Shown here piece after piece: positions 1,508 to 20,711 of a stretch of DNA of 37,244 nt (positions are counted from its first letter, which is position 1; every line of letters begins with the position of its first letter). The notes below the pieces were generated by a model, which made no database searches, was not told the origin of the DNA, and worked only from the letters and a program-made list of their open reading frames with translations. The DNA comes from a virus, in the IMG/VR virus record IMGVR_UViG_3300048690_000209, positions 1 to 37,244 of that record; one strand, written 5' to 3'. Made by a program: the position numbers and the translations under genes.

Positions 1508-1519
1508 TAAAATTTACAC

Positions 1520-1548: not shown

Positions 1549-1567
1549 ATAGTCTAAGTTAAGGATT

Positions 1568-1945: not shown

Positions 1946-1947
1946 TT

Positions 1948-2589: not shown

Positions 2590-2595
2590 TAACAC

Positions 2596-2631
2596 ATAGC
2601 CCGCAATCCTAAAAAGCTTGCGGGCTATTTT
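2596..2631 (+). terminator. Rho-independent terminator after the SSB-like gene
   Basis: ATAGCCCGCAA (2596-2606) pairs with TTGCGGGCTAT (2618-2628), giving an 11-bp GC-rich stem with an 11-nt loop and a TTTT run ending at 2631. It lies between the SSB-like stop and the gp47 ATG at 2646. No promoter was recognised between them, so downstream genes probably depend on partial read-through. Confidence 0.85.
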
Positions 2632-2645
2632 GTCTGATAAACACA

Positions 2646-5665: not shown

Positions 5666-5666
5666 A

Positions 5667-6424: not shown

Positions 6425-6449
6425 ACAGAAGCGGTTAATCGTGTATAAT
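6421..6449 (+). promoter_or_regulatory. Sigma70-type promoter P2
   Basis: TTGAAC (6421-6426) and a perfect TATAAT (6444-6449) are separated by 17 bp. Transcription would start near 6456, 20 nt before the ATG of the FEN nuclease gene at 6476. The -35 box overlaps the stop codon of the preceding nuclease gene. It should drive the FEN-dUTPase-NrdJ unit to the terminator at 9947-9983. Confidence 0.75.
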
Positions 6450-6461
6450 ATACACTTAACC
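6433..6461 (+). promoter_or_regulatory. Dyad symmetry centred on the P2 -10 box (candidate operator)
   Basis: GTGTATA-A-TATACAC (6441-6455) is a perfect 15-nt palindrome containing the -10 box. It is flanked by GGTTAA (6433-6438) and TTAACC (6456-6461), the two halves being offset by 2 bp. A repressor bound here would block RNA polymerase. The dyad is observed; regulator binding is inferred. Confidence 0.5.
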
Positions 6462-6475
6462 ACAAAGAATACACC

Positions 6476-7321: not shown

Positions 7322-7779
7322 GCAACCAATATTTTATTAACGATCCAGGACGTATTCCAGAACCCTCAATCGACTGCCAGCTACAGCCAGGCGCACATCT
7401 TCCACAACGTGCTCACCCCACTGACGCTGGTGCAGATTTGCGTGCACTTGAAGCACATGAGATTTATCCTGGAGAACAAAAACTTGTTGATACAGGAGTA
7501 GCCGTTAAAATTCCACGAGGGTTTGCAGGCTTTATTTTCAATCGCAGCTCGCAAGGGAAAAAAGGCATTACAATCCCACATTCGGTTGGAGTCATTGATT
7601 CCGATTATCGTGGAAATTTAAAAGTTCTGCTAAAAAATATTTCGGAAGACCCTTACGTTATCGAGGTGGGCGACAGAATTGCTCAGCTTGTTGTTCAGCG
7701 TGTGGAGCTTCCAACATTCCGTGATGCATGGAATGACACACAACGCGGTACTGGCGGCTTCGGCAGTACCGGACAATAA
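7318..7779 (+). CDS. dut: dUTPase (dUTP diphosphatase, trimeric)
   Basis: All five trimeric dUTPase motifs are present in 153 residues: TDAGADLRA (35-43), RSSQGKKGI (76-84), GVIDSDYRGNLKV (91-103, with the catalytic Asp and uracil-pocket Tyr), GDRIAQLVV (118-126) and the glycine-rich C-terminal arm RGTGGFGSTG (143-152). It hydrolyses dUTP to dUMP and PPi, preventing uracil incorporation and feeding dTMP synthesis. Translation is coupled to the FEN gene by ATGA overlap; the NrdJ gene starts 14 nt downstream. Confidence 0.96.
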   Translation: MSNQYFINDPGRIPEPSIDCQLQPGAHLPQRAHPTDAGADLRALEAHEIYPGEQKLVDTGVAVKIPRGFAGFIFNRSSQGKKGITIPHSVGVIDSDYRGNLKVLLKNISEDPYVIEVGDRIAQLVVQRVELPTFRDAWNDTQRGTGGFGSTGQ

Positions 7780-7793
7780 ACTAGAAAGAATAA

Positions 7794-9761
7794 ATGAACT
7801 CACCATCAACACGAGCACAAGTAATTACACGTCGTACCTATAATCGCCCTACTAGCGACGACGGAAAAGAGTTTGAAACATGGCAAGAAACAGTTGCCAG
7901 AGTTATTGATCACCAAGAGTGGTTGTGGGCACGAGCAGTAGACCGGGATTTAAATGACGTAGAGTACGCAGAACTTTATGATCTTGAGCAACTTATGCTA
8001 GATCGCAAGGTACTAATGAGTGGTCGTACACTTTGGTTAGGCGGAACTAACGTAGCTAAAACCCGTGAAGCGTCTCAGTTTAATTGCTCGTTCACACACG
8101 TTGAAACAATCTATGACGTAGTAGATGTACTATGGTTGTTGCTACAAGGTTGCGGCGTTGGATTTAAACCAATCGTTGGTACACTAAATGGTTTTTCAAA
8201 GCCAATTAAAAATATTAGAGTAGTGCGCTCTACCCGTACTACCAAAGGTGGTAATGAGCACAATACAGAAACATTTGACGCAGATACTAAAACTTGGACT
8301 ATTCAAGTTGGAGATTCCGCAGAAGCTTGGGCAAAGTCTATTGGTAAGCTTATTGCGGGTAAGTACCCTGCTGATACTCTCGTACTTGATTTTAGTCAAT
8401 TACGACCTGCTGGTGAAAGGCTAAAAGGATATGGTTGGATTTCTTCAGGTGATAGCGCAATTAGTACTGCTTATACTGCTATCGCCAATATTCTTAATGG
8501 TCGTGCTGACAGTTTACTTACTAGGATGGATATTCTGGACATTGTTAACCATCTTGGCACTATTCTATCCAGTCGTCGCAGTGCTGAAATCGCACTTTTC
8601 GATTACGGCCAACCGGAGTGGGAAGAATTTGCGGTAGCCAAAAAAGATTGGTGGTTGCACAACAATGCACATCGCACACAGTCCAACAACAGTTTAGTAT
8701 TTAAAGAAAAGCCGCTTAAGTCTGATCTAGAGAAAATCTTTGGAATGATGATTGAAGCTGGCGGTAGTGAACCAGGATTTATCAATGAAGTCGAAGCCCT
8801 CAGACGTGCTCCTTGGTTTAAGGGAGCCAATCCATGCGTTGAAATCTTACTCGGTAATAAGGCTTTCTGTAACCTTACCGAAACTGACATTGCCAAGTTC
8901 AAAGGCGACACAGCTGGGTTACACAACGCTATACGACTGGCAGCTCGTGCCAACTACAGACAAACGTGTGTTAACCTTCAGGACGGCATTCTTCAAGAGT
9001 CTTGGCACCTTAACAACTATTTCTTACGACTTTGCGGTGTAGGCCTAACTGGTATTGCAATGCGTCCAGATATGGGAAGCTATGACTACGAATACTTGAA
9101 GCGTACTGCTACTAGTGCTGCTGTTGGTATGAGCCAAGAGCTTGGACTGCCTGCTCCTAAAAATGTAACCTGTATTAAGCCGTCAGGAACACTGTCCAAA
9201 ATCATGGATACCACAGAAGGCGTACACAAACCACTAGGAAAGTATATTTTCAACAATGTACAATTTAGCAAACATGACCCGGTGGTTGAGAAACTACGTG
9301 AAGCGAATTACCGTGTTATTAATCATCCTGTTGATGATTCTGGAGTGCTTGTTACGTTTCCGGTAATGTGGGACGGAGTTCCGTTTGATAAAGTTGACGG
9401 CAAAGAAGTTAATATTGAGTCAGCTATTGTTCAGCTAGAGCGTTACAAGTTGTTGCAGACTTCATGGAATCAGCAAAATACCTCTGTAACCATCAGCTAC
9501 GATCCAAGCGAAGTAACAGGAATTATTGATTGGTTATTAGACAACTGGGATTGTTATGTTGGCGTGAGCTTTATCTACCGCACAGATCCAACTAAAACCG
9601 CTAAAGACTTAGGTTACTTGTACCTTCCACAAGAAGTAGTAACTGAACATGACTACCACGAGTATGTTAAAACACTAGGCGCTGTTGATCTTAATAACAC
9701 CAACAGTTTTGACGAAATCACTGATGCAGAGTGCGCAACAGGCGCTTGCCCAATTAAATAA
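7794..9761 (+). CDS. nrdJ: Class II (adenosylcobalamin-dependent) ribonucleoside-triphosphate reductase
   Basis: The 655-residue protein matches the monomeric NrdJ family typified by Lactobacillus leichmannii RTPR. The full set of catalytic residues can be placed by spacing: Cys98 in FNCSF (RTPR Cys119), NPCVE with radical Cys348 (RTPR Cys408) and Glu350 (Glu410), Cys359 in FCNLTE (Cys419, again 11 residues on), and the C-terminal redox pair Cys647/Cys652 (CATGAC; RTPR Cys731/Cys736). It reduces NTPs to dNTPs and needs host or environmental B12 but no oxygen and no separate radical subunit. Thioredoxin or the phage glutaredoxin could reduce its C-terminal pair. Confidence 0.95.
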   Translation: MNSPSTRAQVITRRTYNRPTSDDGKEFETWQETVARVIDHQEWLWARAVDRDLNDVEYAELYDLEQLMLDRKVLMSGRTLWLGGTNVAKTREASQFNCSFTHVETIYDVVDVLWLLLQGCGVGFKPIVGTLNGFSKPIKNIRVVRSTRTTKGGNEHNTETFDADTKTWTIQVGDSAEAWAKSIGKLIAGKYPADTLVLDFSQLRPAGERLKGYGWISSGDSAISTAYTAIANILNGRADSLLTRMDILDIVNHLGTILSSRRSAEIALFDYGQPEWEEFAVAKKDWWLHNNAHRTQSNNSLVFKEKPLKSDLEKIFGMMIEAGGSEPGFINEVEALRRAPWFKGANPCVEILLGNKAFCNLTETDIAKFKGDTAGLHNAIRLAARANYRQTCVNLQDGILQESWHLNNYFLRLCGVGLTGIAMRPDMGSYDYEYLKRTATSAAVGMSQELGLPAPKNVTCIKPSGTLSKIMDTTEGVHKPLGKYIFNNVQFSKHDPVVEKLREANYRVINHPVDDSGVLVTFPVMWDGVPFDKVDGKEVNIESAIVQLERYKLLQTSWNQQNTSVTISYDPSEVTGIIDWLLDNWDCYVGVSFIYRTDPTKTAKDLGYLYLPQEVVTEHDYHEYVKTLGAVDLNNTNSFDEITDAECATGACPIK

Positions 9762-9762
9762 T

Positions 9763-9945
9763 ATGATCTCAAATAACACTGAACTAACATTTAAAGTTAG
9801 TATTGAAGAAGCTAACCACATCTTAGCAGGTTTACAAGAACTGCCTGCTAAAATCTGTAATCCATTGTCTGTGAAGCTACAGGCTCAAGCAAAAGAACAA
9901 TTGCCTGACCAAGCACCAGAACAACCAACAGAACAGTTAGCATAA
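9763..9945 (+). CDS. Unknown 60-residue protein after nrdJ
   Basis: Translation most likely starts at the ATG at 9763, one base after the NrdJ stop; an upstream in-frame ATG at 9685 would lie wholly inside nrdJ. The protein has a short folded-looking part (LTFKVSIEEANHILAGLQELP) and a Gln/Pro/Glu-rich tail (QLPDQAPEQPTEQLA). The helical SIEEANHILAGL segment resembles short motifs of many small phage proteins of unknown role. It is the last + strand gene, directly followed by a terminator. Confidence 0.65.
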   Translation: MISNNTELTFKVSIEEANHILAGLQELPAKICNPLSVKLQAQAKEQLPDQAPEQPTEQLA

Positions 9946-9946
9946 T

Positions 9947-9983
9947 AAAAAGCCCCCGCGTTGCAAAACTCGGGGGCTTTTTT
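9947..9983 (+). terminator. Rho-independent terminator of the + strand block
   Basis: AAAAAGCCCCCG (9947-9958) pairs with CGGGGGCTTTTT (9971-9982) around a 12-nt loop, and a run of six T follows the G-rich arm. It begins 2 nt after the stop of the last + strand gene. Confidence 0.93.
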
Positions 9984-10025
9984 GTCGTCAAAAATTGTGA
10001 ACGTGCGCCAATGCAACCATAACAA

Positions 10026-10057
10026 AAAAGCCCCACATATTGCTATGTGGGGCTTTT
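10026..10057 (-). terminator. Rho-independent terminator of the - strand block
   Basis: AAAAGCCCCACATA (10026-10039) pairs with TATGTGGGGCTTTT (10044-10057), giving a 14-bp stem with a 4-nt loop. Read on the - strand it ends in six T. It lies 2 nt after the TAA (10060-10062) of the last - strand gene. With the terminator at 9947 it separates the convergent blocks. Confidence 0.93.
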
Positions 10058-10059
10058 CT

Positions 10060-10698
10060 TTATAGTGGAGTATCTTCGTTGCTGTCTTCGTCGTCTACGT
10101 TATCGTAGTCAATCATATCTTCCGGTGCTAGTTCCGAAAATACTAGTACTAGTATGTCCCGATACGGTTGCTCTACAAGATGTAAATCTAGTAAGTAAGT
10201 ATCAAGATGATTATTTCGTAGCAACTGAGCGTGGTACATAAACTGACCAAAAGCATCTAGTTGTTCTGAAATATTTTCATTTGCGTAATTTTCCAATGTC
10301 TGCGCAGCAGCCATTAGCATTACGTGTGGAATTTGTGATTTTGTTACAGTTACTAAGCGAAGTGCTTTGGCTTCTCGTGCTCGCATAATTTGATTACGCT
10401 TGGCAGTACTCCATGAATATCCACCATCTCCGCCCCATAAGTCCCAAGCTACTCGACCTTTGCTTGGAAAACCTTCTTCGCCGCTTCGAAAACCGGTTGC
10501 CTGTTTATCCGGCTCATGGCGACTGAAAAAGCTGTACATACGTAGCACAACACTTTCTGAAAGTGGACTACGGTCTTTTAATTGATTAGCCCTAGCAAGA
10601 CCTACTAAGGTCCCGCCAGGTTCACCATCTGCTTTCCATGCTAGTGCACGTTTGGCAGCAGTTGCCATTCCTGTTGTTGGTTTGTATGTTTTTGCCAT
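10060..10698 (-). CDS. Conserved phage protein of unknown function (WGGD..SW motif)
   Basis: The 212-residue protein has a lysine/alanine-rich start (GMATAAKRALAWK), then GGTLVGLARANQLKDRSPLS, FFSRHEPDK and GRVAWDLWGGDGGYSW (about 80-96). The pattern G-G-T..G..RA..L, F-x-RHE-x-DK, and WxLWGGDxGxxW is one I recall in many phage proteins of undefined role, sometimes attached to structural or DNA-handling proteins. The C-terminal third is helical and ends in a very acidic tail (DNVDDEDSNEDTPL). It starts 2 nt after the phoH stop, so it is co-transcribed with phoH. Confidence 0.8.
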   Translation of the reverse strand: MAKTYKPTTGMATAAKRALAWKADGEPGGTLVGLARANQLKDRSPLSESVVLRMYSFFSRHEPDKQATGFRSGEEGFPSKGRVAWDLWGGDGGYSWSTAKRNQIMRAREAKALRLVTVTKSQIPHVMLMAAAQTLENYANENISEQLDAFGQFMYHAQLLRNNHLDTYLLDLHLVEQPYRDILVLVFSELAPEDMIDYDNVDDEDSNEDTPL

Positions 10699-10700
10699 AA

Positions 10701-11459
10701 TTAATTTCTATAAGCCATAATAATTTGTTTACACATCTTACTACGTACAATGTCTTCATCAAGGAATTCTACTACCTCAATACCATCAATGCCTTCTAAG
10801 CGATCCACCGCGTCTTCTAATCCTGAATCAGGAATGTCAGATTGCTCAGTATCACCACTAAAGATCATTTTACAATTTTTACCAATGCGCGATAGCAGCA
10901 TTTTCATTTCTTCACGAGTACAGTTTTGTGCCTCATCTACTAGTACAATACAATTGTCAAAGGTAGTGCCGCGTAAAAAGCCTAGTGGAGTTGGATCAAT
11001 ATCCTTGGCTTTTAAACAGTATTCATAAAATCCTTTGCCCAATGCTTTAGTAAAAATAGCATCAAAAGGCAATAGGTAAGGAGCATACTTTTCTTCTAGA
11101 GTACCTGGTAAGAATCCTAATCCACGACCTGTTTCAATATTTGGTCTGGTTAAGATAACTTTATCAACACGTTTGTGAAATAACTCGCTGGCAGCATAGC
11201 TGGCAGCAATATATGTCTTACCAGTACCGGCACTGCCAATACCAAATATTACATCATTGTGTTTAATAGCATCTAGATATTCACCTTGTACAAAGTTTAG
11301 TGGCTGAACTTCTTTAAAGGTATAATTACGTTGAGGTTGGGGCTCGCTGCTTCCAGCATGTTTTTCATTACGCAGCCTAGACTTTTCAGCTTGTGAAGGC
11401 CGGTCGCTAGACTTTTTTGCTGGAAAGGTGCGATGGTTTTTACCACTATTTCTTGCCAT
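10701..11459 (-). CDS. phoH: PhoH-like ATPase
   Basis: The 252-residue protein has Walker A GSAGTGKT (75-82), Walker B VLVDEAQN (172-179) and SGDTEQSD (201-208), the standard PhoH signature. The first 45 residues are basic and low-complexity. PhoH is a predicted RNA/DNA-dependent ATPase, common in marine and freshwater phages and often discussed as a phosphate-starvation gene; its phage role is not settled. I chose the ATG at 11459 because AAGGAA precedes it at good spacing. A GTG at 11510 extends the frame by 17 codons but lies inside the promoter at 11501-11529, so it cannot be used from that transcript. Confidence 0.94.
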   Translation of the reverse strand: MARNSGKNHRTFPAKKSSDRPSQAEKSRLRNEKHAGSSEPQPQRNYTFKEVQPLNFVQGEYLDAIKHNDVIFGIGSAGTGKTYIAASYAASELFHKRVDKVILTRPNIETGRGLGFLPGTLEEKYAPYLLPFDAIFTKALGKGFYEYCLKAKDIDPTPLGFLRGTTFDNCIVLVDEAQNCTREEMKMLLSRIGKNCKMIFSGDTEQSDIPDSGLEDAVDRLEGIDGIEVVEFLDEDIVRSKMCKQIIMAYRN

Positions 11460-11482
11460 GAATTTCCTTGTTGGTTTATGTA

Positions 11483-11516
11483 AATCTTGTGGAAGAAATA
11501 ATTTTACCACAAGATT
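11483..11516 (-). repeat. 10-bp inverted repeat across the phoH promoter (candidate operator)
   Basis: AATCTTGTGG (11483-11492) and CCACAAGATT (11507-11516) are perfect reverse complements separated by 14 bp that include the -10 box. One arm is in the -35/-10 spacer and the other starts at about +2. The upstream arm is not transcribed from this promoter, so the symmetry points to DNA recognition by a dimeric regulator rather than an RNA hairpin on that transcript. Confidence 0.6.
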
Positions 11517-11529
11517 AAATTACTGTCAA
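11501..11529 (-). promoter_or_regulatory. Sigma70-type promoter of phoH
   Basis: Read on the - strand, TTGACA (11524-11529, 6 of 6) and TAAAAT (11501-11506, 5 of 6) are 17 bp apart. The start of transcription would be near 11494, giving a leader of about 35 nt before the phoH ATG at 11459. The -35 box begins 9 nt after the stop of the preceding gene, so phoH and the gene after it have their own supply besides read-through. Confidence 0.82.
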
Positions 11530-11537
11530 ATATAAAT

Positions 11538-11738
11538 TTACTTTGGGGCTTTTGGGGGCATAGGAGTACCTTCCAGTTTTTTATGCACTTTTACTTCTTT
11601 GCATACTTCTTTTGGTTTTTTAGTTTTAGGATCTGTTTGTTCAACACAGACCTTTTTGGTTTCAGCAGCGAATACTGAATTATTGTATCCTAGTAAAAAA
11701 ATACCTGTAGCTAATGCTAATACTAACAATAGTTTCAT
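11538..11738 (-). CDS. Small exported protein, 66 residues, unknown
   Basis: A Sec-type signal peptide is clear: MKLLL start, hydrophobic core to about residue 20 and a likely cleavage after VFA (NNSVFA/AETKK). The mature part is about 42 residues, with two Cys (KVCVEQT and KEVCKEV) and a Lys/Pro-rich tail (GTPMPPKAPK). The Cys spacing could allow one disulfide in the periplasm. The stop of the preceding gene directly abuts its start. No family recognised. Confidence 0.75.
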   Translation of the reverse strand: MKLLLVLALATGIFLLGYNNSVFAAETKKVCVEQTDPKTKKPKEVCKEVKVHKKLEGTPMPPKAPK

Positions 11739-12191
11739 TTAAATCTCCGGTTGAGGTGCTTGTTGAGGCGCTGGCTTGCCATTTATCATACGAATCTCTG
11801 CGATTGCAGTGCCGTTAAATCCAGCAGTAGTACTAAGACCTGGTGAGAAAGTTGGTTCTTGACGTGGTACATACGAAGTTTTAGCTGCTGCAGCTGCGTT
11901 ATCTTGTGCTTGCTTCATTAGTGCAATAGAAGCATCAACTTCTTCCTTACTTCCACCTGCTAACATAATTCCGGACAATGTACCGGTTAAGAATGTAGCA
12001 ATTGGTACAATTAATTCAAAAAATTTCTGGTCTATTGGGCTAATAGCGTTTAGTGGCTGTGTTACAAAAATCAAACTATAAAGCACAACGAATACAATGC
12101 CTGTTAGTGTTAGTGCTAAGCACACACCAATAAAAAACTTTAAACGAGCCATTAGCTGCTCATCGGTATATAAAAACGGATTACTTTGCAC
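11739..12191 (-). CDS. Two-helix membrane protein, possible holin
   Basis: The 150-residue protein has two hydrophobic segments (about 17-44, LKFFIGVCLALTLTGIVF onwards, and about 60-80, IVPIATFLTGTLSGIMLAGG), then a soluble Ala/Gln/Pro-rich tail. Translation starts at GTG (12191) with AGGAG six to seven bases upstream, overlapping the previous gene by 11 bp; an ATG 13 codons later has no comparable ribosome site. Size, two membrane helices and distance to the lysis genes make a holin role plausible, but the gene is 4 kb from the endolysin and the tail is long for a holin. Confidence 0.72.
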   Translation of the reverse strand: MQSNPFLYTDEQLMARLKFFIGVCLALTLTGIVFVVLYSLIFVTQPLNAISPIDQKFFELIVPIATFLTGTLSGIMLAGGSKEEVDASIALMKQAQDNAAAAAKTSYVPRQEPTFSPGLSTTAGFNGTAIAEIRMINGKPAPQQAPQPEI

Positions 12192-12450
12192 AGGTTACTC
12201 CTGGAGTGGTGGTTGGTGTGGATTGAGCTGGCGTTGCCTGAGGGTCTACTCTAGGATCGCGCTGCCCTTTGAAGATGTGGTCAGGACAAGTACGAGTTAC
12301 ATCACAAATTGGTCGCTTACATTGAGGTGAGTCCCAATTTGCTGGATTTTGGCATGGATATCGAAAACGATCTCCGCCAAAAAATGCTAAGGCAACTGGT
12401 AGTATAACCAATAAGCCTAGCCATTTAAATAATTTTAAGTCGGTGTTCAT
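12181..12450 (-). CDS. Small membrane-anchored Cys-rich protein, 89 residues
   Basis: An N-terminal hydrophobic helix (about 8-25, FKWLGLLVILPVALAFFGG) is followed by an exported-looking segment with five Cys (YPCQN, PQCKRP, ICDVTRTCPD, VTCAK) and a Thr/Pro/Gln-rich stretch (ATPAQSTPTTTPG). The helix can be an uncleaved anchor or a signal peptide. The Cys pairs suggest disulfides in the periplasm. The 3' end overlaps the next gene by 11 bp. Function unknown. Confidence 0.7.
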   Translation of the reverse strand: MNTDLKLFKWLGLLVILPVALAFFGGDRFRYPCQNPANWDSPQCKRPICDVTRTCPDHIFKGQRDPRVDPQATPAQSTPTTTPGVTCAK

Positions 12451-12502
12451 TTTTATTAGCCTACTTTTCCTAATAGTAAATTAAAGGTTTTTTGATACTC
12501 AT

Positions 12503-13000
12503 TCATCTGCTACACCTATTAGCCGTTTGACAAAATTCTGCTAACTCATATAGACCTATAAAAAATAAGAATATAACAAAAGCGGTAGCACCAATAACTA
12601 CAGCTAATTCATTTAAGTCTTCTTGTTTCTTTTTACGTGCGCGTTTTTGAGCATTAAGAAGTCTTACTTGATTAGCATCATCTGCGTCCATTTCAGCTTG
12701 GCGAGCTTTAATCTTCATCCAAACATCAATTTTACCTGTTTGCATAAATAGTAGTTTAAGTTCTTCTTCAAAAGCCCTTGCCTGTTCTAGTGCCATCTCT
12801 ATTTGTAAAGCCGCACCCATGTTTGAGCCTTTTTTAGAGCTTTTAGCTTCAATTAAAGCTTTGGTGCCAGTACTTGTAGCATCAAACATTTTTGCAATCA
12901 TTGGAGCAAGAGAACCTAAGTCGTTGGCAACTGCGCTGGCTTTCTTTACCATCGAAATGGCTGATTGTATCCCCGCTATTGCGGTAATCGGATCTATCAT
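12503..13000 (-). CDS. C-terminally membrane-anchored helical protein, unknown
   Basis: The protein has 165 residues from the ATG at 13000, which has GGAGG at good spacing; the GTG five codons upstream overlaps that site and is less likely. It starts MIDPITAIAGIQSAISMVKKA, continues as long amphipathic and charged helix (KARQAEMDADDANQVRLLNAQKR shape) and ends with a membrane helix (about 135-155, LAVVIGATAFVIFLFFIGLY) and a short Cys-containing tail. Similar DPITAI...I openings occur in uncharacterised proteins of aquatic phages. It is ATGA-coupled to the 42-residue gene upstream. Confidence 0.75.
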   Translation of the reverse strand: MIDPITAIAGIQSAISMVKKASAVANDLGSLAPMIAKMFDATSTGTKALIEAKSSKKGSNMGAALQIEMALEQARAFEEELKLLFMQTGKIDVWMKIKARQAEMDADDANQVRLLNAQKRARKKKQEDLNELAVVIGATAFVIFLFFIGLYELAEFCQTANRCSR

Positions 13001-13125
13001 TTTTTCTTCCTCCACTCTAAGCAGATTACTTTTCTATTGTATACGTCACCAGGCCACATCCATCGCGCACACTCATATTCTGGCTTCGCGTATCCTAATA
13101 CAAATGTTAGTATTAGGGTATACAT
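12997..13125 (-). CDS. Small phage protein, 42 residues (short gene)
   Basis: An ATG at 13123-13125 overlaps the TAA of the preceding gene (TAATG), and the frame runs 42 codons to a TGA that overlaps the ATG of the next gene (ATGA). The product opens with a hydrophobic stretch (MYTLILTFVLGYAKP), then has ECARWMWPGDVYNRKVICLEW and a KKK tail. The pattern C-x-RW, GDVYNRKV-x-CL-x-W is one I recall from very small conserved phage proteins. Exact junctions on both sides, filling an otherwise empty 124-bp gap, make the gene convincing. Function unknown; the N-terminus may be a signal or short anchor. Confidence 0.75.
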   Translation of the reverse strand: MYTLILTFVLGYAKPEYECARWMWPGDVYNRKVICLEWRKKK

Positions 13126-13682
13126 TACTTACCTGCTAGCGGGTTATCTATAGCAGTTTTAATTTTATTATCAACATTACGCTCAACACGTTCCAATTTA
13201 GCATCTGTATCGCGTTTTAGCTTTTCCAGGTCTTCGCGCGCTTTGTCTAAATTACTGCGAAGGTCTTTTTGTACAGACTTTAAGTCTTGGTCTGTTTCAC
13301 GCTGAGCTTGTTTAACACTACGCTCAATTTGCTCGGTTACGGTTTCGTTACGACGTAAATCTTGTTTTAGGTCGTTTTTAATATCACGAGTATAGTCTGA
13401 AGTCTTTTGAGAGTTTTCCTCAATTACTGATAGTCGCTTATCGAACTCACTTAGATCAGGTGTTACATACTCAGCAATTTTCTTTTTCATACCCATATAG
13501 TCTTTGTATATTTCAAAAGTGCCATAAAGACCGCCTAGGGCACTACTTGCAATTGTAAAAGCAATCATTAGTTTGGCTGGAGTAAACTCGTATCCACCAA
13601 TACTAATAACGGTGTCTTTTGAGGCATATTTTTTAGCTGCAGCTTCTAGCTCGTCAACTTTTTTATTTAAGTCTTCTGCCAT
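13125..13682 (-). CDS. Membrane-anchored coiled-coil protein, 185 residues
   Basis: A short soluble start (MAEDLNKKVDELEAAAKKY) is followed by one hydrophobic segment (about 37-56, LMIAFTIASSALGGLYGTF) and then by some 115 residues of charged heptad-like sequence (DLKQDLRRNETVTEQIERS and onward). This gives a single-pass protein with a long coiled coil. AGGAG precedes the ATG. It stands between the large Pro-rich exported protein and a 42-residue gene and shares TAATG coupling with the latter. No family recognised; a scaffolding or envelope-spanning role is possible. Confidence 0.75.
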   Translation of the reverse strand: MAEDLNKKVDELEAAAKKYASKDTVISIGGYEFTPAKLMIAFTIASSALGGLYGTFEIYKDYMGMKKKIAEYVTPDLSEFDKRLSVIEENSQKTSDYTRDIKNDLKQDLRRNETVTEQIERSVKQAQRETDQDLKSVQKDLRSNLDKAREDLEKLKRDTDAKLERVERNVDNKIKTAIDNPLAGK

Positions 13683-13690
13683 AATAACTC

Positions 13691-15388
13691 CTATTTATAT
13701 TGCAGGTTTACTAAGTCTTGATGCCTTTGATCCGACCCTAAACCGCGTAAAACTCGTACGTTGTCTACAACTCTTTGATTTTTGTAAACTTCCCGTGGTT
13801 CGTAAAAATTTGCGTCACGTAGCGCAAAGTTTGTGTAGCTTGCATATCCTTGTGGGATTGTTGCCAACTGTGCTAAACCAACGCCGGTGGCCAATTCATT
13901 TGTGGCAGTTTGATTGCGTTGTGTTTGTTGTGGTTGTTCAGGCTCAGATTGCTGAACTTGTTGTGCTTCCAAAATTTGCTTTAATGGACTGTTTAAGTCA
14001 GTTAAAAAGTTTGGCTGTTGAAATAGCTGCTCGGACTCTTGTCGGGCAAGTTCTTGTGGTGCAAAAACTGCTGTAGTTTGTGTGGTTTGAGCCTGTTCCA
14101 CAGTTGTTGGTACTAATAGCTGCAACTGTGTTGTTTGTTGCTGATTGGATACAGCAGTAAAACTTTGTGAATTTTGCAGTATACTGCTTGTTTGCTGTTG
14201 CTGCACTGTAACTGCTGCAAGGCTGCTACGGCTAGCAGAACTTGAGGCTTGAGTTCCACTACTACTAAAACTAGTTTCAGAACTTGTAATACTCTGTGAA
14301 ACTGCTGCAGTAGCAGTAGCAGTGGCCACTTGCTGTGCACGATCACCAGCAGCTTGTGCGGTTGCTTCGGCCGCTGTTACCACTTGTTGTGCTACAGCTT
14401 TTTCACGATCCGAATTCTTGGCAATTAAGCTTAATGCGAATCCAATATTTGGTGCTCCACCGGACTTTTCTTGTGCACTTGCTGCTGTTTGGGGTGGAGG
14501 TGCTTGTGAGCCTTGTTGTGGCTGTGGTTGACCTTGTGGTGGCGCACCTGGCGGCGGGCTGCCTGGTGCAGGCGGACTGCCGGGCGGTGGCGGACTACCT
14601 GGTGGAGGTTCTGGGGCTTCTGGAGGCGGAGTGTACGCTGCTTGAGTTTCTGTTGCGCTACTTTTTGGAGTCAACTTAGCTAGTGCGTCCAAATAGCCTT
14701 TGCAAGTAGGCGAGTAAAGTGGATTTGAAGCACAAGGATCAACCGAATACTTAACTGAGAAACTAACGTTATAAACTTCTGGACCGTACGGTCCCGCCCA
14801 ACCATTATTGTCGCGGCCAATAAACCCGTACTGTACTAAACCCACACTAGACTTTGCTAGTGGGGTTGAAAAAGTATCTGAGTAATTAAAATCTGTCCAG
14901 TTATAGCTATAGCTTAAATTCCACGCATTTCCATATAATAAGTTATTTGCAGCTTTACCACCAGTATTATCCCAAAATCTTACTAGTGCTGATAATTGAT
15001 CTGTGCGACCATCGTCCCAACCATTGCCATTTTTAGCTCTAAATCCAAAGTTATATCCATTTACTTGCAGACCTGTTGATTCTGGTAACAACGTACTGAT
15101 ATGTTGTTGCTGATAAACATAAGTAGAGCCATAACTAAAGTTCAATTGGTTGCCAGGACGTACAATTGCTTGCGGACCGCAGTAACCAGTATCTCCTTGT
15201 TGCCCCCAACAAGTTAAACTATCTTGATATACTGCACCGGTCCACGTAGATCCTGTTGCAGTAGTTGTGGGTATAACAATGTTGCCAGTTTGATATATTT
15301 GGCCAGGTATCAATTCTTGCGCGTTAGAATAACTTGTGAACCAAAAACCCAAGCACAGCGCCAAGACCAACTTTCTTATATACATCAT
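13691..15388 (-). CDS. Large exported protein: beta-rich domain, Pro-rich linker, Ala/Gln coiled region
   Basis: The 565 residues begin with a signal peptide cleaved near SNA/QELIPG. Residues about 25-225 form a Trp/Tyr/Asn-rich, beta-like domain (GNGWDDGRTDQLSALVRFWD, NNLLYGNAWNLSYSYNW) with two Cys pairs. Then come a Pro/Gly segment (about 245-300, PPPPGSPPAPGSPPPGAPP) and an Ala/Gln/Ser/Thr-rich stretch, probably helical. The C-terminus is ordered again (GYASYTNFALRDANFYEPREV). The signal peptide codons overlap the 3' end of the upstream gene by 65 bp. Two ATGs open the frame; GAGG suits the first. Function unknown; an extracellular or outer-membrane role is inferred. Confidence 0.78.
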   Translation of the reverse strand: MMYIRKLVLALCLGFWFTSYSNAQELIPGQIYQTGNIVIPTTTATGSTWTGAVYQDSLTCWGQQGDTGYCGPQAIVRPGNQLNFSYGSTYVYQQQHISTLLPESTGLQVNGYNFGFRAKNGNGWDDGRTDQLSALVRFWDNTGGKAANNLLYGNAWNLSYSYNWTDFNYSDTFSTPLAKSSVGLVQYGFIGRDNNGWAGPYGPEVYNVSFSVKYSVDPCASNPLYSPTCKGYLDALAKLTPKSSATETQAAYTPPPEAPEPPPGSPPPPGSPPAPGSPPPGAPPQGQPQPQQGSQAPPPQTAASAQEKSGGAPNIGFALSLIAKNSDREKAVAQQVVTAAEATAQAAGDRAQQVATATATAAVSQSITSSETSFSSSGTQASSSASRSSLAAVTVQQQQTSSILQNSQSFTAVSNQQQTTQLQLLVPTTVEQAQTTQTTAVFAPQELARQESEQLFQQPNFLTDLNSPLKQILEAQQVQQSEPEQPQQTQRNQTATNELATGVGLAQLATIPQGYASYTNFALRDANFYEPREVYKNQRVVDNVRVLRGLGSDQRHQDLVNLQYK

Positions 15389-16439
15389 CTGTTTTTACCT
15401 CATCCAGTTTAGGAATCTTGTCTGGGTTAGCATCCCACTGCGCTTTGGCTTGAGCACCGATTTGACCTTCATAAGGACAAGGTGTTCCGGCTTGTAGCAT
15501 AGCATCAAATACACGGCGATCTTGACACATTGTAGCAACTGCGGCTACTTTCATACCCATATCAAATAATGTTTTTGATAATTTTAAACGTTCACAGTTT
15601 AAGTCACGAACAGTGCCGCCTGAACTTACACCAAATACCTGTGTTTGAACACTACCACTTGAACCAGTTGAACACAGGTCAGCATTACCACCACTCATCA
15701 TTGTAGGTGCAACTGCTGTTGGTGGTGGCTGAATTACGCGTTGAGTGATCGTTGACTCGTTGATATTCTTGTTGGTTATTTCACCTGAATTAATATTTTG
15801 ATTAATATTGGTGTTGGCATTTGTATTTTGATTAACGTTTGTGTTGGTAGAAACCGCAGTACTAGTATTCTGATTAATGTTGGTCATTGAACCACTTTGA
15901 ACATTATTGTTGGTGCTGGTGGAAGTGCTGGTGTTGATATTACGATTAGTCATATCACCAGTATTAACATTATTGTTTGTTGCTGTTGACGTACTGGAGT
16001 TAATATTATTGTTATTATACGTCATTGTACCCGAATTAATGTTATTGTTGGTATTAACACTTGTACTTACATTATTATTATTGTAAGTCATTGTACCCGA
16101 ATTAACATTATTGTTATTGTAGGTAACAGTTCCACTCATAGCATTATTATTATTGTTGGTAACTGTACCAGACTGAATATTGTTGTTAGTATTTACACTA
16201 GTCGATGTGCTAGTATTATTGTTGTTGTTTGTGTTAGTTGAAGCACTATTAACAGTACTCAAACTAGTAGAATTAGAATTACTTGTAGTATTTGAATTTG
16301 AATTAACGGTGCTAGTAGAAACACTTGTTGAATTAGTATCTACTAAACTTTTGGAGTCGTAAGTACCTTGATTAATGAGCGTTTGAGCACCCACACTGCT
16401 TGCTGCAAATAGCAAACCTGCTAAAACTATTTTAATCAT
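15324..16439 (-). CDS. Exported Asn/Ser/Thr-rich repeat protein
   Basis: The 371 residues begin with a signal peptide (cleavage near VGA/QTLINQG). Residues about 35-245 are irregular tandem repeats of Asn, Ser and Thr with a recurring unit like SGTMTYNNNNVNSGT, as in solenoid or amyloid-like beta structures. The C-terminal 120 residues form a normal domain: LCSTGSSGSVQTQVFGVSSG, RDLNCERLKLSKTLFDMGMKVAAVATMC and TPCPYEG, with four Cys, ending in a hydrophobic GLGAVLGFLVHKLF. I recall this C-terminal domain from other aquatic phage proteins without a known function. It lies right after the endolysin gene and overlaps the next gene by 65 bp. Confidence 0.8.
   Translation of the reverse strand: MIKIVLAGLLFAASSVGAQTLINQGTYDSKSLVDTNSTSVSTSTVNSNSNTTSNSNSTSLSTVNSASTNTNNNNNTSTSTSVNTNNNIQSGTVTNNNNNAMSGTVTYNNNNVNSGTMTYNNNNVSTSVNTNNNINSGTMTYNNNNINSSTSTATNNNVNTGDMTNRNINTSTSTSTNNNVQSGSMTNINQNTSTAVSTNTNVNQNTNANTNINQNINSGEITNKNINESTITQRVIQPPPTAVAPTMMSGGNADLCSTGSSGSVQTQVFGVSSGGTVRDLNCERLKLSKTLFDMGMKVAAVATMCQDRRVFDAMLQAGTPCPYEGQIGAQAKAQWDANPDKIPKLDEVKTDDVYKKVGLGAVLGFLVHKLF
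15745..16350 (-). repeat. AT-rich tandem repeats coding the Asn-rich tract
   Basis: This stretch codes runs such as YNNNNVNSG and TNNNI in units of roughly 11-16 codons. On the + strand it reads as repeated blocks of ATTATTATTG and TTAACATTATTGTT. The copies vary in length and sequence, so they are diverged, and they are coding, not CRISPR-like. Confidence 0.8.
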
Positions 16440-16440
16440 C

Positions 16441-17055
16441 TTACGCTCCTAATACGTGTAATGCATGCTCGTAATGCTTAATACGATCTTCTAATCCAAT
16501 GGTACCGCCATTAATACGTTTTGTTAAAGTGAGAATATCACCCTTATCTGCCCACTGATTTAATTTGTTGGTTTCCCAGAACCAACAAGCCGACTGTGCT
16601 GCACCTTCAAATGTTTCCAGGTATTCAGCAGCTTCTTCTACGCTAATACCCAAACTAGCGGCAAACCAAGTATAGTTGTCTTTGCCAGTTAGCTGAATTA
16701 GGCCTTTGCCCGAATAACGATAGCCGTCGCCAGACTCTACCGGCCCATTGCCCATACGGTTAGCATAAACTAGGTTGGCAATTGCTTGCTGTTTGCCAGC
16801 ATACTGCTGTGCTAGCTCATCAGTTGGAAAGTACTTGGGAAATATCTTGCGTAGTGTAACTGCACGATAATTTAAATTTTCACGTAGTGCTGTAAAGCCG
16901 CCTGACTCATGTGCACACTGTGCTACAAAAGCTGCAATACGTTGCGGTGTATTGATCTCGTAGTCTGGTAGTAATTGAGCTAGTGCTGTATGCCATTGCT
17001 TAGCATACGGGTTTTTAGGAATCAGCTGTTGTAGCTGTTGTAGTGATAGATTCAT
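16441..17055 (-). CDS. Endolysin, glycoside hydrolase family 19 (chitinase-like lysozyme)
   Basis: The 204-residue protein shows the GH19 endolysin core: AHESGGF with catalytic Glu50, LNYRAVTLRKIFPKYFP (62-77), YANRMGNG (97-104), GYRYSGKGLIQLTGKDNY (111-128) and RINGG (180-184). GH19 phage endolysins cut the glycan strands of peptidoglycan. There is no signal peptide, so release should depend on a holin. Its start overlaps the stop of the lipoprotein spanin gene (TAATG), making a spanin-spanin-endolysin cassette. Confidence 0.93.
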   Translation of the reverse strand: MNLSLQQLQQLIPKNPYAKQWHTALAQLLPDYEINTPQRIAAFVAQCAHESGGFTALRENLNYRAVTLRKIFPKYFPTDELAQQYAGKQQAIANLVYANRMGNGPVESGDGYRYSGKGLIQLTGKDNYTWFAASLGISVEEAAEYLETFEGAAQSACWFWETNKLNQWADKGDILTLTKRINGGTIGLEDRIKHYEHALHVLGA

Positions 17056-17321
17056 TACTTCAATCCTTCATATATGATTTTTTGTTCGCGATACCAACGC
17101 TGCCAAGCGTCCAATTTAACAGCACACGTATAGTACTCGCTATAATTAACTGTTACAGTTTTTGCTACATCTGATAGCTTAGCCTCGTCGCTGAGCTTCT
17201 GTAAATTTGGACAAGGTTCTTGTAATAGAGTACCTGGTGATTGTGGAAACTTTGCTGTAACTGGAACAACTGTAGAACAAGCACTTAATGTAAGGGCTAG
17301 TGTAATAGCTAATAATTTCAT
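17055..17321 (-). CDS. Outer-membrane lipoprotein, o-spanin (Rz1)-like
   Basis: The 88 residues open with a lipoprotein signal: MKLLAITLALTLSAC, with the lipobox LSAC placing the lipidated Cys at 15. The mature part is about 74 residues, with two further Cys (EPCPN, YTCAVK) and an amphipathic end (LDAWQRWYREQKIIYEGL). Spanins of this size fuse inner and outer membranes at the end of lysis in Gram-negative hosts. Its ATG overlaps the stop of the membrane protein gene upstream (ATGA) and its end abuts the endolysin, as expected for a lysis cassette. Confidence 0.8.
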   Translation of the reverse strand: MKLLAITLALTLSACSTVVPVTAKFPQSPGTLLQEPCPNLQKLSDEAKLSDVAKTVTVNYSEYYTCAVKLDAWQRWYREQKIIYEGLK

Positions 17322-17737
17322 TTAGGCTGCTCCGCTGCACGATTATGTGCTTGAATGAACTCTTTTGGTAGTACGCAAGTGGTATCGTGTTTTACTACTT
17401 CACGATCAATAAACTGTACATTATCAGCACCGCGTCTTGTGATTACCTGAGTTTTATAAACTACTTTTTCTTTTATAGTTTCGTTGACGGTTTGTGCTTT
17501 GGCTTCTGCAACATCTACACGGGCTTGTAGTTCCTGTGCAGCCTGTTTCCAGGTATTATCGCAGTACAGCATTCCAAAAATAAAAATTGTTGCCGCAACC
17601 ACCGTACCGCCAACAATTTTAAGTGGCAAGGCATAAAGTTTTGCTTGAGGCAAATAACTTAATAAAAAAGCCAATATTCCGCTTATAAGTGATAGCCACC
17701 AGATCCAATCTGGAAGAATTTTAAAAATAAAAAACAT
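17318..17737 (-). CDS. Inner-membrane protein, i-spanin (Rz)-like
   Basis: The 139 residues hold two hydrophobic segments (about 11-30, WWLSLISGILAFLLSYLP, and 40-57, IVGGTVVAATIFIFGMLY), then a charged helix (AAQELQARVDVAEAKAQTVNE) and a segment VVYKTQVITRRGADNVQFID, ending KHDTTCVLPKEFIQAHNRAAEQ. The periplasmic-type coiled coil and the adjacent o-spanin gene make it the probable inner-membrane partner. Having two membrane segments instead of one is unusual for i-spanins. An alternative is a holin/spanin-like fusion. The ATG directly follows the TAA of the 31-residue ORF. Confidence 0.72.
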   Translation of the reverse strand: MFFIFKILPDWIWWLSLISGILAFLLSYLPQAKLYALPLKIVGGTVVAATIFIFGMLYCDNTWKQAAQELQARVDVAEAKAQTVNETIKEKVVYKTQVITRRGADNVQFIDREVVKHDTTCVLPKEFIQAHNRAAEQPK

Positions 17738-17833
17738 TTAATTTACCCTTGCGCGGTTAGCTAAGTACTCTAGCAACTCATTTTCATAACTCTGGAAATA
17801 ATTCCTTATGAATGTACTCATGAACTTGATCAT
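17738..17833 (-). CDS. Candidate 31-residue gene between the bilin reductase and the spanins
   Basis: An ATG at 17831-17833, with AGGA seven bases upstream, opens a 31-codon frame in a different frame from the reductase. It overlaps the reductase 3' end by 50 bp and ends in a TAA immediately before the ATG of the i-spanin-like gene. The product is basic at the start and helical (MIKFMSTFIRNYFQSYENEL, then LEYLANRARVN). The fit between ribosome site, overlap and exact stop/start junction suggests a real gene, but it is short and unsupported by a known family. Confidence 0.45.
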   Translation of the reverse strand: MIKFMSTFIRNYFQSYENELLEYLANRARVN

Positions 17834-18470
17834 CGTTGAATCCTAAACTTTTTAACACTCGTGGAGTGTGTGGATTACATTTTTGTTGTTGACAGTAGTA
17901 ATTTTGTTGCTGTGTAAAGTCATACTTGGCAACTTGATCGTCATAGGTTAACTTAGGACGATTTGGTTTAATGTTGTCTAAATAGTAGATAAGCGACTTT
18001 TTTGATATTTCTAGTATTACTGACAACTCAAACTCTGAATTAATATTACCGGCCGCAACCATGTTGCCGCTAAATATGTTTTGTGCCCACTCGGGCAGTT
18101 GACGTGGCTTAGCCCACGACGTAGGTTCTACCAGTTCATGGAACCAGTCAATCATTTTATGTTCTGGATCGCCACACGGAGAAAAATCTAGGAAAGCACC
18201 TGTAATCTTATTAGTACCAGCTATAATATCAAATCCGTAGATAGGGGCTGAATCATAAGTGTGAGGAAACACACATATATGCATCATGTACAGCTTTTTT
18301 GATTCAATGGCATCTATAACGTCTACGTTGGCACGACGAACCCAAGCATTTGAGTAATTTTTAGCGTACCAATCTGAGGTGTTATCCGTGGTCGAAAGAA
18401 AAGCACGCTGTGCAATAATGGTTTCCATTTCTTCAGCGTGCTTTTTTAATTTGTTAAATATTGTGCTCAT
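17784..18470 (-). CDS. pcyX: Ferredoxin-dependent bilin reductase, PcyX/PcyA-like
   Basis: The 228-residue protein matches the FDBR family over its length. MMHICVFP and PIYGFDIIAG place His64 and Asp81 at the exact spacing of the PcyA residues His88 and Asp105; SARS-free downstream anchors are LDFSP (94-98), QLPEWAQNIFS (124-134) and a C-terminus like PcyA (NYYCQQQ..N..T.RVL, 190-206). The PcyA Glu76 site has no Glu; Asp53 is one residue off. Family members reduce biliverdin IX-alpha with ferredoxin electrons; phage PcyX makes phycoerythrobilin. It overlaps the heme oxygenase gene by 17 bp. FDBR is firm; the PcyX subtype and product are inferred. Confidence 0.9.
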   Translation of the reverse strand: MSTIFNKLKKHAEEMETIIAQRAFLSTTDNTSDWYAKNYSNAWVRRANVDVIDAIESKKLYMMHICVFPHTYDSAPIYGFDIIAGTNKITGAFLDFSPCGDPEHKMIDWFHELVEPTSWAKPRQLPEWAQNIFSGNMVAAGNINSEFELSVILEISKKSLIYYLDNIKPNRPKLTYDDQVAKYDFTQQQNYYCQQQKCNPHTPRVLKSLGFNDDQVHEYIHKELFPEL

Positions 18471-18987
18471 TGGCTAGTTCACTAAACAGTTCTATAGCAT
18501 AATCAAAACACAAGTTAGCTTCGGAAGCCATTGAGACATCTAACTTGTTACGTAATGCATCAATCAGATCTTTACGATTCTCAAACTCATACATAGTTGC
18601 TGAACCTGGTACCAGTTTTTTAATCATCTGTCCACCGTAAAGGTCTCCCATATGTCGAACGTATAAGTGAGCTAATATTTGTTGATCTGTTAGGTTATTA
18701 GCTACATATTGTACATACTCTTGAGTACTAGTATAAAGTTTAACAACGCCGGCATTTAGTTCTATTAAATCTTGTTTAATTAAATCTGCCCGACATAATC
18801 CAGGCAGATTGTCTAATAATCCGCGCGTATTTGCCACACTTTCAAGTGTGTAGTATATGGCGTGTTGATTGTACAAAAAATCACTGTAAATACTCTCCGA
18901 CATTTTGCCGGAGAGTAATAGCTGTGTAAACTTGTGTTGTTCTGCTAACACATGACTATCATGCGTTAGCTCTTTTAGTGTTGTCAT
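18454..18987 (-). CDS. ho1: Heme oxygenase (biliverdin-forming)
   Basis: The 177-residue protein has the heme-ligand region SHVLAEQHKF with proximal His12, and the distal-helix motif YVRHMGDLYGGQ (109-120) with GDLYGGQ at 114-120. Both are characteristic of HO-1-type enzymes, which open heme to biliverdin IX-alpha with release of CO and Fe2+, using ferredoxin electrons in this setting. It is shorter than cyanobacterial Ho1 (about 240 residues), lacking C-terminal sequence, as in other phage enzymes. The ATG overlaps the TGA of the tail assembly chaperone gene (ATGA), and the bilin reductase gene follows with a 17-bp overlap. Confidence 0.95.
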   Translation of the reverse strand: MTTLKELTHDSHVLAEQHKFTQLLLSGKMSESIYSDFLYNQHAIYYTLESVANTRGLLDNLPGLCRADLIKQDLIELNAGVVKLYTSTQEYVQYVANNLTDQQILAHLYVRHMGDLYGGQMIKKLVPGSATMYEFENRKDLIDALRNKLDVSMASEANLCFDYAIELFSELANEHNI

Positions 18988-19346
18988 GTTGTTGGTGCTT
19001 GTGGTACTATGATTTCAGCAATAGTTGTAGCTGATGCAAAAGTTGCTGGCATATCGCGTAATTGTTGGCGATACGTTGCCCACTCAGCTTTTTGTGCTGA
19101 TGTTAGTGGAGCATCTACTACCTGAGTCCAATCACTTTGCTGTAATAGGTGTGTACGTAAGTTGCGGATACCAATATCGATTTGAGCTTTAGTAATTTCT
19201 GGCTCTTCTGGAATAGGCATATGCTCAACCCATCCAAGCTCCGTTAACCCTACTTGATCAGTTAAGCCAGTTCTTTGTAAAACATCTGGATAAGCAACTG
19301 GGCCATCTACTATTACACCATTTACTACATAATTATAAAATACCAT
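18984..19346 (-). CDS. Tail (fibre) assembly chaperone
   Basis: I start this 120-residue protein at the ATG at 19346, which has AGGAG seven bases upstream and overlaps the stop of the adhesin gene (TAATG); an earlier in-frame start adds 21 unlikely residues. The C-terminal half reads IRNLRTHLLQQSDWTQVVDA, then KAEWATYRQQLRDMPAT, the recurrent pattern (L..SDWTQ..D.PL....WA.YRQ.LRD) of phage tail assembly chaperones. It lies directly after the glycine-rich adhesin gene, its likely client, and is coupled to heme oxygenase. Confidence 0.82.
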   Translation of the reverse strand: MVFYNYVVNGVIVDGPVAYPDVLQRTGLTDQVGLTELGWVEHMPIPEEPEITKAQIDIGIRNLRTHLLQQSDWTQVVDAPLTSAQKAEWATYRQQLRDMPATFASATTIAEIIVPQAPTT

Positions 19347-20260
19347 TACATATCTCCTGTACCGGTTGAAGGAAACTTTCTGCCAGTACCCCAAATAATA
19401 CGAACACAACCGCGACCACCTCTATGATAGTGATATCTATTTCCTGAGTTGCCGCCTTGGCCGGAACCGCCGCCGTACAAACCGCCGTCAAGTACTGTAT
19501 GACCATAGCTGCTCCAAGGATTTTCTCCTCCACGACCATTTTCGCCACCGCTACCGCCTTGACCGCCTACATAACTATATGCAGAGCCGCTAGCACCTTG
19601 TCCAAAAGGACCTGTACCACCCGCGCTTGAATAGCCGTATGTACTGGAATAACTACCGCCGCCGGCAGCACCGCCACCACTACCAGAATTATTTCCATTA
19701 CCACCATTACCAGTATAGCCGCCAGCACCGCCACCGCAGTTATTACCGCCGTTACCGCCGAAGCCGCCACCATCACCACCCCAAGAACCACCAGTTGGAA
19801 GAGTACCACCACCACCGTAAACAACACTTGTACTAATAAAGTAACTAGTGCCTCCAGAACTATCGGTCGGACTTTCAGCTTGTAAGTAGTCACCACCTCG
19901 CCCAACTACAACTGTATAGGTTTTACCTGGCTCTACTTGAATATCATTTTTCCAACCTAAACCACCGCCACCAGGAGGTGTAGTATAGGTGTAGTTTGCA
20001 CTACCAGCACCACCGCCAATACAAACTACAGATACTTTGGTAACGCCAGGAGGGCAAGTCCAAGCATATGTACCGCTACCAAAACCATAAAAAGCCTGGC
20101 CTGACGGTGCTTCTGCTTCTGCTGCTGCAACTTTTGGCGGGAAATAAAGATTTCCTTTACCATCAGTGGAAAGAGGTTGACCAGGAGCACCATCCTGTAA
20201 CGGAAGTGTAAACTGAGCACCTTCTCGTCTTTGTAATTGATCTGTTACAATTTTTGTCAT
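19346..20260 (-). CDS. Glycine-rich tail-tip adhesin (receptor-binding protein)
   Basis: The 304 residues start with a short attachment-like segment shared with the fibre at 20711-21637 (MTKIVTDQLQRREGAQFTLP; there MGKLIVDQIQKPGGSTFTLP). A beta region follows (GFGSGTYAWTCPPGVTKVSV). From about 90 to 285 the protein is very rich in Gly, Ser, Asn and Tyr (GGDGGGFGGNGGNNCGGGAG). It ends RGCVRIIWGTGRKFPSTGTG. Gly-rich tips of this kind in phage adhesins (for example S16 gp38) fold as stacked polyglycine helices and carry host specificity. The fold here is inferred from composition. Confidence 0.8.
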   Translation of the reverse strand: MTKIVTDQLQRREGAQFTLPLQDGAPGQPLSTDGKGNLYFPPKVAAAEAEAPSGQAFYGFGSGTYAWTCPPGVTKVSVVCIGGGAGSANYTYTTPPGGGGLGWKNDIQVEPGKTYTVVVGRGGDYLQAESPTDSSGGTSYFISTSVVYGGGGTLPTGGSWGGDGGGFGGNGGNNCGGGAGGYTGNGGNGNNSGSGGGAAGGGSYSSTYGYSSAGGTGPFGQGASGSAYSYVGGQGGSGGENGRGGENPWSSYGHTVLDGGLYGGGSGQGGNSGNRYHYHRGGRGCVRIIWGTGRKFPSTGTGDM

Positions 20261-20283: not shown

Positions 20284-20307
20284 GAGTGGGGTACGAATAC
20301 CCCACTC
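20284..20307 (-). terminator. UUCG-loop hairpin between fibre genes (possible weak terminator)
   Basis: GAGTGGGGTA (20284-20293) pairs with TACCCCACTC (20298-20307). On the - strand the loop is UUCG, an extra-stable tetraloop. It is followed by ATTTTATCTTATT instead of a solid T run. It lies in the 52-bp gap between the chaperone gene (ends 20313) and the adhesin gene (starts 20260). It could lower expression of the adhesin, bilin and lysis genes relative to the fibre genes, or protect upstream mRNA. Confidence 0.6.
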
Positions 20308-20312
20308 CGTTA

Positions 20313-20711
20313 TTAGATAGACAAAACTGGAAAGACAATATCATTTGGATAGTCTTTTTGTTTTGTGATATTATCTAAGGCTAGTCTATACTCTGAAATA
20401 GACTTCTTCTTGTCCTCAGAATACGTATCCCATAGTTCGGGACTAGTAAGTTCTTTTAATTGTGCTTTTAGCTGATCTACTTTACGTACAGCAGTTCTCG
20501 TCAAACGAATATTTTCATATTCTTTGTGAAACTGCTCTAGCTCTACGTCAGTTAATTCTACAATTTTACCATTAACTAGTTTAAGCTTAGTATGCTCTTT
20601 AAAACCAGAAGGAATTTCGTAAAATTCCTCCTTGGTTTGTTCACTATCATCTTCTGGTAAAGTATTTTGAGCTTGAATTAGTCTGCCTGTTTCATCAAAC
20701 TTTGCAAACAT
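20313..20711 (-). CDS. Probable tail fibre assembly protein
   Basis: The 132-residue soluble protein has an N-terminal beta segment (MFAKFDETGRLIQAQNTLPE), an acidic linker, and a helical C-terminal half (YENIRLTRTAVRKVDQLKA, LWDTYSEDKKKSISEYRLAL). This split, with the late W-x-x-Y-x-x-x-x-K...YR..L pattern, resembles tail fibre assembly chaperones. The start overlaps the stop of the fibre gene 20711-21637, its probable client. The assignment rests on shape and position. Confidence 0.65.
   Translation of the reverse strand: MFAKFDETGRLIQAQNTLPEDDSEQTKEEFYEIPSGFKEHTKLKLVNGKIVELTDVELEQFHKEYENIRLTRTAVRKVDQLKAQLKELTSPELWDTYSEDKKKSISEYRLALDNITKQKDYPNDIVFPVLSI

Follow-up and report, generated by a model that had tools for sequence, protein, structure and literature searches.

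We identified a cassette of two genes, encoding a heme oxygenase and a ferredoxin-dependent bilin reductase (FDBR), in a 37,244-base IMG/VR virus record, the whole of which is referred to here as the window. Our overall explanation, which we consider probable, is that ~100-kb siphophages, distant relatives of Demerecviridae, carry a functional ho-pcyX cassette as an optional late cargo, and that this cassette would convert heme to phycoerythrobilin with an iron benefit to the phage. The parts of this explanation differ in strength. An enzymatic heme-to-bilin pathway is very likely from the two sequences, phycoerythrobilin, a pink pigment, is the product we would expect, and iron from heme breakdown is offered as a tentative account of the benefit. 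The initial annotation had proposed a two-step pathway from heme to a phytobilin. Families, motifs, folds and selection agree with this proposal, and the PcyX-type reductase allows the product to be sharpened to phycoerythrobilin.

The features of the region are listed in Table 1. The positions and residues given in the initial annotation, including the 17-bp overlap, were borne out for both genes; their strand, which it had left unstated, is minus.

Table 1. The bilin cassette and its surroundings in the window
Feature	Position	Strand	Evidence
GH19-type endolysin	16441..17055	minus	phrog_181 endolysin (E=6e-78), PF00182
Rz1-like outer-membrane spanin	17055..17321	minus	Matches to Rz-like spanin PHROGs; LysC hit short of the Pfam cut-off
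Rz-like inner-membrane spanin candidate, first lysis-block gene downstream	17318..17737	minus	Signal-peptide-motif match to phrog_4952; lies ahead of the Rz1-like gene
Probable PcyX-type ferredoxin-dependent bilin reductase, 228 aa, Asp50/His64/Asp81	17784-18470	minus	PF05996, 5owg, tree, residues
Overlap of oxygenase and reductase genes, 17 nt	18454..18470	minus	ORF coordinates
Heme oxygenase, 177 aa, His12 and GDLYGGQ 114-120	18454-18987	minus	PF01126, motifs, fold
Tail-fibre-assembly-type gene, probable ATG 19346	18984..19346	minus	PHROG tail fibre/assembly matches
Glycine-rich tail-associated protein, directly upstream, same direction	19346..20260	minus	phrog_4474 (unknown function), phrog_863 tail fibre assembly
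Long tail-fibre protein, 2061 aa	21654..27839	minus	phrog_9851 tail fiber (E=1.7e-224)

To classify the reductase, we compared its family scores, residues, phylogeny and fold with those of known FDBRs. It matched PF05996 above the curated Pfam cut-off (E=1.3e-18), and its His64 and Asp81 align with His88 and Asp105 of PcyA at exact spacing, as the initial annotation had described; this pair was kept in all relatives covering both positions. Asp50 occupies the slot of Glu76 in Synechocystis PcyA. Every PcyA aligned, whether from cyanobacteria, cyanophages or alphaproteobacteria, has Glu in this slot, whereas Asp50 was kept in 88 of 92 phage relatives. In the alignment PcyX has the same Asp/His/Asp set, presumably numbered Asp55/His69/Asp86, and the alignment with 5owg together with a residue count makes Asp50 the counterpart of Asp55. 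Asp55 has been described as a catalytic residue specific to PcyX (PMC11480375).

The best match among solved structures was the phage PcyX 5owg (173 bits, E=6e-50), with cyanobacterial PcyA at 40 bits. In a maximum-likelihood tree of 90 rows, the reductase fell into a 24-row clade (support 100/99) that consists of phage reductases from IMG/VR and is separate from the PcyA clade (12 rows, support 95/97). The order in which the window clade and the clade of 5owg and the Pelagibacter phage Mosig join is an unresolved fork. The reductase thus lies outside cyanophage PcyA and PebS; it was a position within them that the initial annotation had named as evidence against its proposal. Membership in PcyA was rejected because of Asp50 in place of Glu and a score of 87 bits against the cut-off of 206 for the NCBIfam PcyA equivalog NF002760. 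PebS was rejected because PebS of cyanophage P-RSM6 has Asn at the His88 position, where the window reductase has His64, and because the very long PebS branch is distant from the window in the tree. The AlphaFold model (mean pLDDT 90) matched the structures of PcyA, PcyX, PebB, PebA, HY2 and PebS, and a median dN/dS of about 0.08 over unsaturated family pairs indicated purifying selection. Taken together, this data suggests a PcyX-type reductase, closer to PcyX than to the other FDBR families. In four loci (L089, L090, L091 and L092; e.g. L091:10627-11331), the reductase has Lys in the slot of PcyA Glu76 and PcyX Asp55 and keeps the His and Asp. These phage HO-FDBR pairs appear to represent a third type of active site, and their product cannot be predicted.

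The upstream ORF encodes a canonical PF01126 heme oxygenase, as judged by its family score (E=3.5e-18, above the curated Pfam cut-off), proximal His, GDxxGGQ motif and all-helical HO fold. The sequence is alignable to Synechocystis HO-1 (1we1), and His12 and the GDLYGGQ motif, both pointed out in the initial annotation, align with the proximal His and the distal-helix motif of solved heme oxygenases. His12 and the Gly, Asp and Gln positions of the motif were invariant among 10 phage relatives. Foldseek matches of the structure model were heme oxygenases (TM 0.75-0.82), with low model confidence across the distal-helix stretch that holds the motif. The protein is short (177 aa), the solved enzymes having about 205-220 modelled residues, and its median dN/dS of about 0.14 (unsaturated family pairs) indicated purifying selection. 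A 12-bp hairpin spanning the first oxygenase codons was dropped as a conserved element and taken as coincidence, since relatives do not conserve it.

We found that the two genes are linked well beyond the window. In nearly all of ~90 loci the reductase gene is immediately preceded by the oxygenase gene, the sole exception being L039, where no oxygenase gene was found nearby. Only 4 of the called adjacent pairs do not overlap, and in nearly all relatives the overlap measures 1-59 nt, most commonly 20, 29 or 17 nt. The two genes nevertheless reassort between phages. The 99,859-bp record G003 shares 82% identity with the window in the reductase and 57% in the oxygenase, and the same record shares 79% and 81%, respectively, with locus L005. 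That the pair stays together despite this reassortment points to a joint function, and the adjacency over ~90 loci, the purifying selection and the expected folds argue that the pairing is not due to chance.

To place the phage, we used G003 as a near-complete stand-in, whose helicase, SSB, SbcCD, RusA, exonuclease, class II ribonucleotide reductase and PhoH are 96-100% identical to those of the window. G003 has 25 tRNA genes and a siphovirus-type set of proteins (fused protease-capsid protein, portal, tape-measure and major tail proteins). Two of its genes that lie outside the window give the affinity by proxy: the terminase is 50% identical to those of 113-117 kb Vibrio phages, and the capsid protein 37% identical to that of the Demerecviridae phage PG07. 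These sequences suggest a ~100-kb siphophage lineage that is distant kin of Demerecviridae (T5-like). The known members of that family infect Gammaproteobacteria. Two ORFs of the window, 32878-34743 (621 aa) and 13691-15388 (565 aa), had neither a Pfam nor a PHROG match.

The cassette lies between tail-fibre genes and the lysis block, in agreement with the late, structural setting noted in the initial annotation. The tail-fibre-assembly-type gene and the oxygenase gene share 4 nt, at the stop of the former and the start of the latter. A terminator-like hairpin was observed at 20284-20307 on the minus strand (10 pairs, z -3.7), after a tail-fibre-assembly gene at 20313-20711, so that the genes from 20260 through to the lysis block may form a transcription unit of their own. 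Some 36 family loci in IMG/VR have the cassette between a long tail-fibre/assembly module and an Rz-Rz1-endolysin block, in some cases with extra genes between the cassette and Rz. At L007:298-2501, L023:5206-6999 and similar loci, genes for a surface-sugar-type PfkB kinase, cupin, epimerase and carbamoyltransferase precede the oxygenase gene, in the place of the tail-fibre-assembly genes. Many of the marine loci L042-L080 have Hsp20-like and ClpS-like (sometimes DnaK-like) genes, assigned by eye, directly upstream of the oxygenase gene.

Eight relatives of 69-104 kb, with core proteins about 70-99% identical to those of the window, lack the cassette throughout their records; the cassette thus appears to be optional late cargo of the ~100-kb siphophages. 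Of 26 cassette-positive loci that extend far enough upstream, 24 have a homologue of the 2061-aa tail fibre; both full cassette-positive records have one as well, and none of the 8 cassette-negative relatives does (Fisher p=1.5e-6, from related loci and adjacent genes, hence no independent test). The clearest case is G009, which has a helicase, RusA and RNR 98%, 99% and 97% identical to those of the window and neither the cassette nor the fibre. Another cassette-negative relative, G004, has a tmRNA-like gene (tag ANDTQFALVA; L205:4777-5170) amid many tRNA genes, a possible host clue. The cassette either hitchhikes physically with the fibre or serves in the host that the fibre reaches. It is conceivable, if rather doubtful, that the cassette is a host-specific trait that moves with one long-tail-fibre module among similar backbones, with its benefit (iron, biliverdin removal or interference with host biliproteins) confined to that non-photosynthetic host. 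If so, phages reaching one non-photosynthetic host type would also bring the conversion of heme to phycoerythrobilin.

The window covers ~37% of a genome the size of G003, and as a fragment of a ~100-kb lineage it says little by the absence of a gene. We examined related records, several of which are fragments. In searches with positive controls, none of 14 cassette-bearing records of 34-128 kb had photosystem or phycobilisome genes, which extends the absence of photosynthesis genes reported in the initial annotation. These searches of the 14 records also gave no PHY-domain phytochrome gene, a search that the annotation had recommended beyond the window, and no ALA synthase (Aminotran_1_2 match). 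Its observation that ferredoxin is missing held for the Fer2 class, the ferredoxin class covered, in 24 related records, and the electrons for the reductase presumably come from the host. The host itself was sought but not found. BLAST of window positions 1-20000 against 398 Pseudomonadota genomes gave short diverged matches, none of them CRISPR-spacer-like or prophage-like. A single scan of genome contigs turned up nothing beyond phage-like contigs within MAGs and alphaproteobacterial or cyanobacterial PcyA of 26-29% identity, and neither the tRNAs nor the INPHARED matches indicated one.

From the families and the intact motifs, the heme oxygenase would open host heme to biliverdin IX-alpha, CO and Fe2+. 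Host ferredoxin would then feed the reductase, which would reduce biliverdin by four electrons, most likely through 15,16-dihydrobiliverdin to phycoerythrobilin. This product is predicted because the reductase is PcyX-type, with PcyX residues and PcyX as its nearest characterised relative; sequence is, however, no reliable guide to the product of an FDBR (PMC13193486). Late in infection, heme breakdown could release iron, and the reductase could pull slowly released biliverdin off the oxygenase. Iron release alone leaves the second enzyme unexplained, as heme breakdown needs no bilin reductase. In 4 of 36 family loci, and likewise in phage Mosig, a gene for an iron-dependent 2OG-Fe(II) oxygenase comes directly before that of the heme oxygenase, which is weakly compatible with iron use; this neighbourhood is a minority, and aquatic phages commonly carry genes of this kind.

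A possible but less favoured explanation is that the product, or the removal of biliverdin, alters a host phytochrome or bilin-binding globin and shifts the light signalling of the infected cell. It would account for a pathway that continues past biliverdin to a reduced bilin, a step superfluous for iron release. Some non-photosynthetic bacteria have bilin-binding globins and pre-PcyA enzymes (PMC10151467), and the product of the PcyA of phage CB_2 assembles with phytochrome (PMC11480375). However, the 14 cassette-bearing relatives encode no phycobilisome-type or PHY-domain protein, and mainly because no bilin acceptor of the phage was found, we favour iron release with product pull over a chromophore role.

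A functional PcyA that yields phycocyanobilin, like that of the freshwater phage CB_2, is an unlikely reading of the reductase. The enzyme belongs to the PcyA lineage and shares the catalytic His/Asp pair with PcyA, and CB_2 shows that phage cassettes can yield phycocyanobilin (PMC11480375), but the Asp in the Glu76 slot, the low equivalog score and the much greater nearness to PcyX, in both the 5owg score and the tree, argue for a PcyX-type enzyme. A role like that suggested for pebS and pcyA of cyanophages, in which the cassette would support photosynthetic light harvesting by a cyanobacterial host, is very improbable. The predicted product is a phycobilisome pigment, and expressed PcyX adds phycoerythrobilin to the phycobilisomes of Synechococcus (PMC13197396). 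Against this stand the position of the reductase outside cyanophage PcyA/PebS and the lack of photosystem and phycobilisome matches in the 14 related records. The backbone, in addition, resembles that of Demerecviridae, with their gammaproteobacterial hosts. Finally, although the oxygenase is short and its distal helix is modelled with low confidence, we see almost no chance that the pair consists of non-functional remnants or an annotation artefact, given dN/dS far below 1, invariant catalytic residues, and an overlap and pairing kept across dozens of phages.

The pair is real, but the initial annotation had overrated its novelty: ho1-pcyX from phages of presumed non-cyanobacterial hosts dates back to a 2016 description (cited in PMC4928673), further work followed in 2018 and 2024 (PMC11480375, Nat Commun 2024), and the pair has been characterised biochemically (PMC4928673, PMC11480375). 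The ho1-pcyX cassette of uncultured oceanic phages (Ledermann 2016/2018; PcyX_EBK42635, PDB 5owg) has the gene order, the Asp/His/Asp residue set and the presumed non-cyanobacterial host in common with the window, whereas the enzymes of the window fall into a separate clade with about 40-43% identity to marine PcyX, in a different phage lineage and genome position. The hemO-pcyA/X genes of Pelagibacter phage Mosig (MT647606) have the same order and a short overlap, with about 42% identity in the reductase and about 35% in the oxygenase. Mosig is a 141-kb Kyanoviridae (T4-like) phage that carries several 2OG oxygenases and a ferrochelatase, and its cassette adjoins neck genes instead of lying between tail fibre and lysis genes.

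Phages with hemO-pcyA/X-valaS cassettes, including CB_2 from freshwater, likewise combine HemO and an FDBR and are phages of non-cyanobacteria (PMC11480375). The CB_2 FDBR lacks PcyX Asp55 and makes phycocyanobilin (PMC11480375), in contrast to the window reductase with its matching Asp50. The three-gene hemO-pcyA/X-alaS cassette contains an ALA synthase gene, absent from the 14 relatives of the window. The contigs of the 2024 study are of myovirus type (PMC11480375). Because of the siphovirus-type proteins, terminase and capsid matches of G003, the window's lineage is regarded as distantly T5-like, unlike Mosig and these contigs. Cyanophage PebS and PcyA are also phage-carried FDBRs, and PebS likewise makes phycoerythrobilin; PebS belongs to another FDBR lineage, cyanophage PcyA has the Glu76 active site, and their hosts are cyanobacterial, unlike in the window.

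Our literature search, mostly outside subscription journals, found nothing relevant on bilin or heme-oxygenase genes in Demerecviridae or T5-like phages. We found no report of an ho-pcyX pair in a ~100-kb T5-related siphophage lineage with a tail-fibre/lysis setting, those described earlier being from pelagimyophages. The cassette is thus not confined to T4-like pelagimyophages and occurs in a second, structurally unrelated lineage of tailed phages. The literature has no settled answer as to what phages of non-photosynthetic hosts gain from a phycobilin pathway. The lineage described here is a natural experiment on this question, with many phages of ~100 kb and closely similar core proteins that have or lack the cassette, and the benefit would become testable once the host is found.
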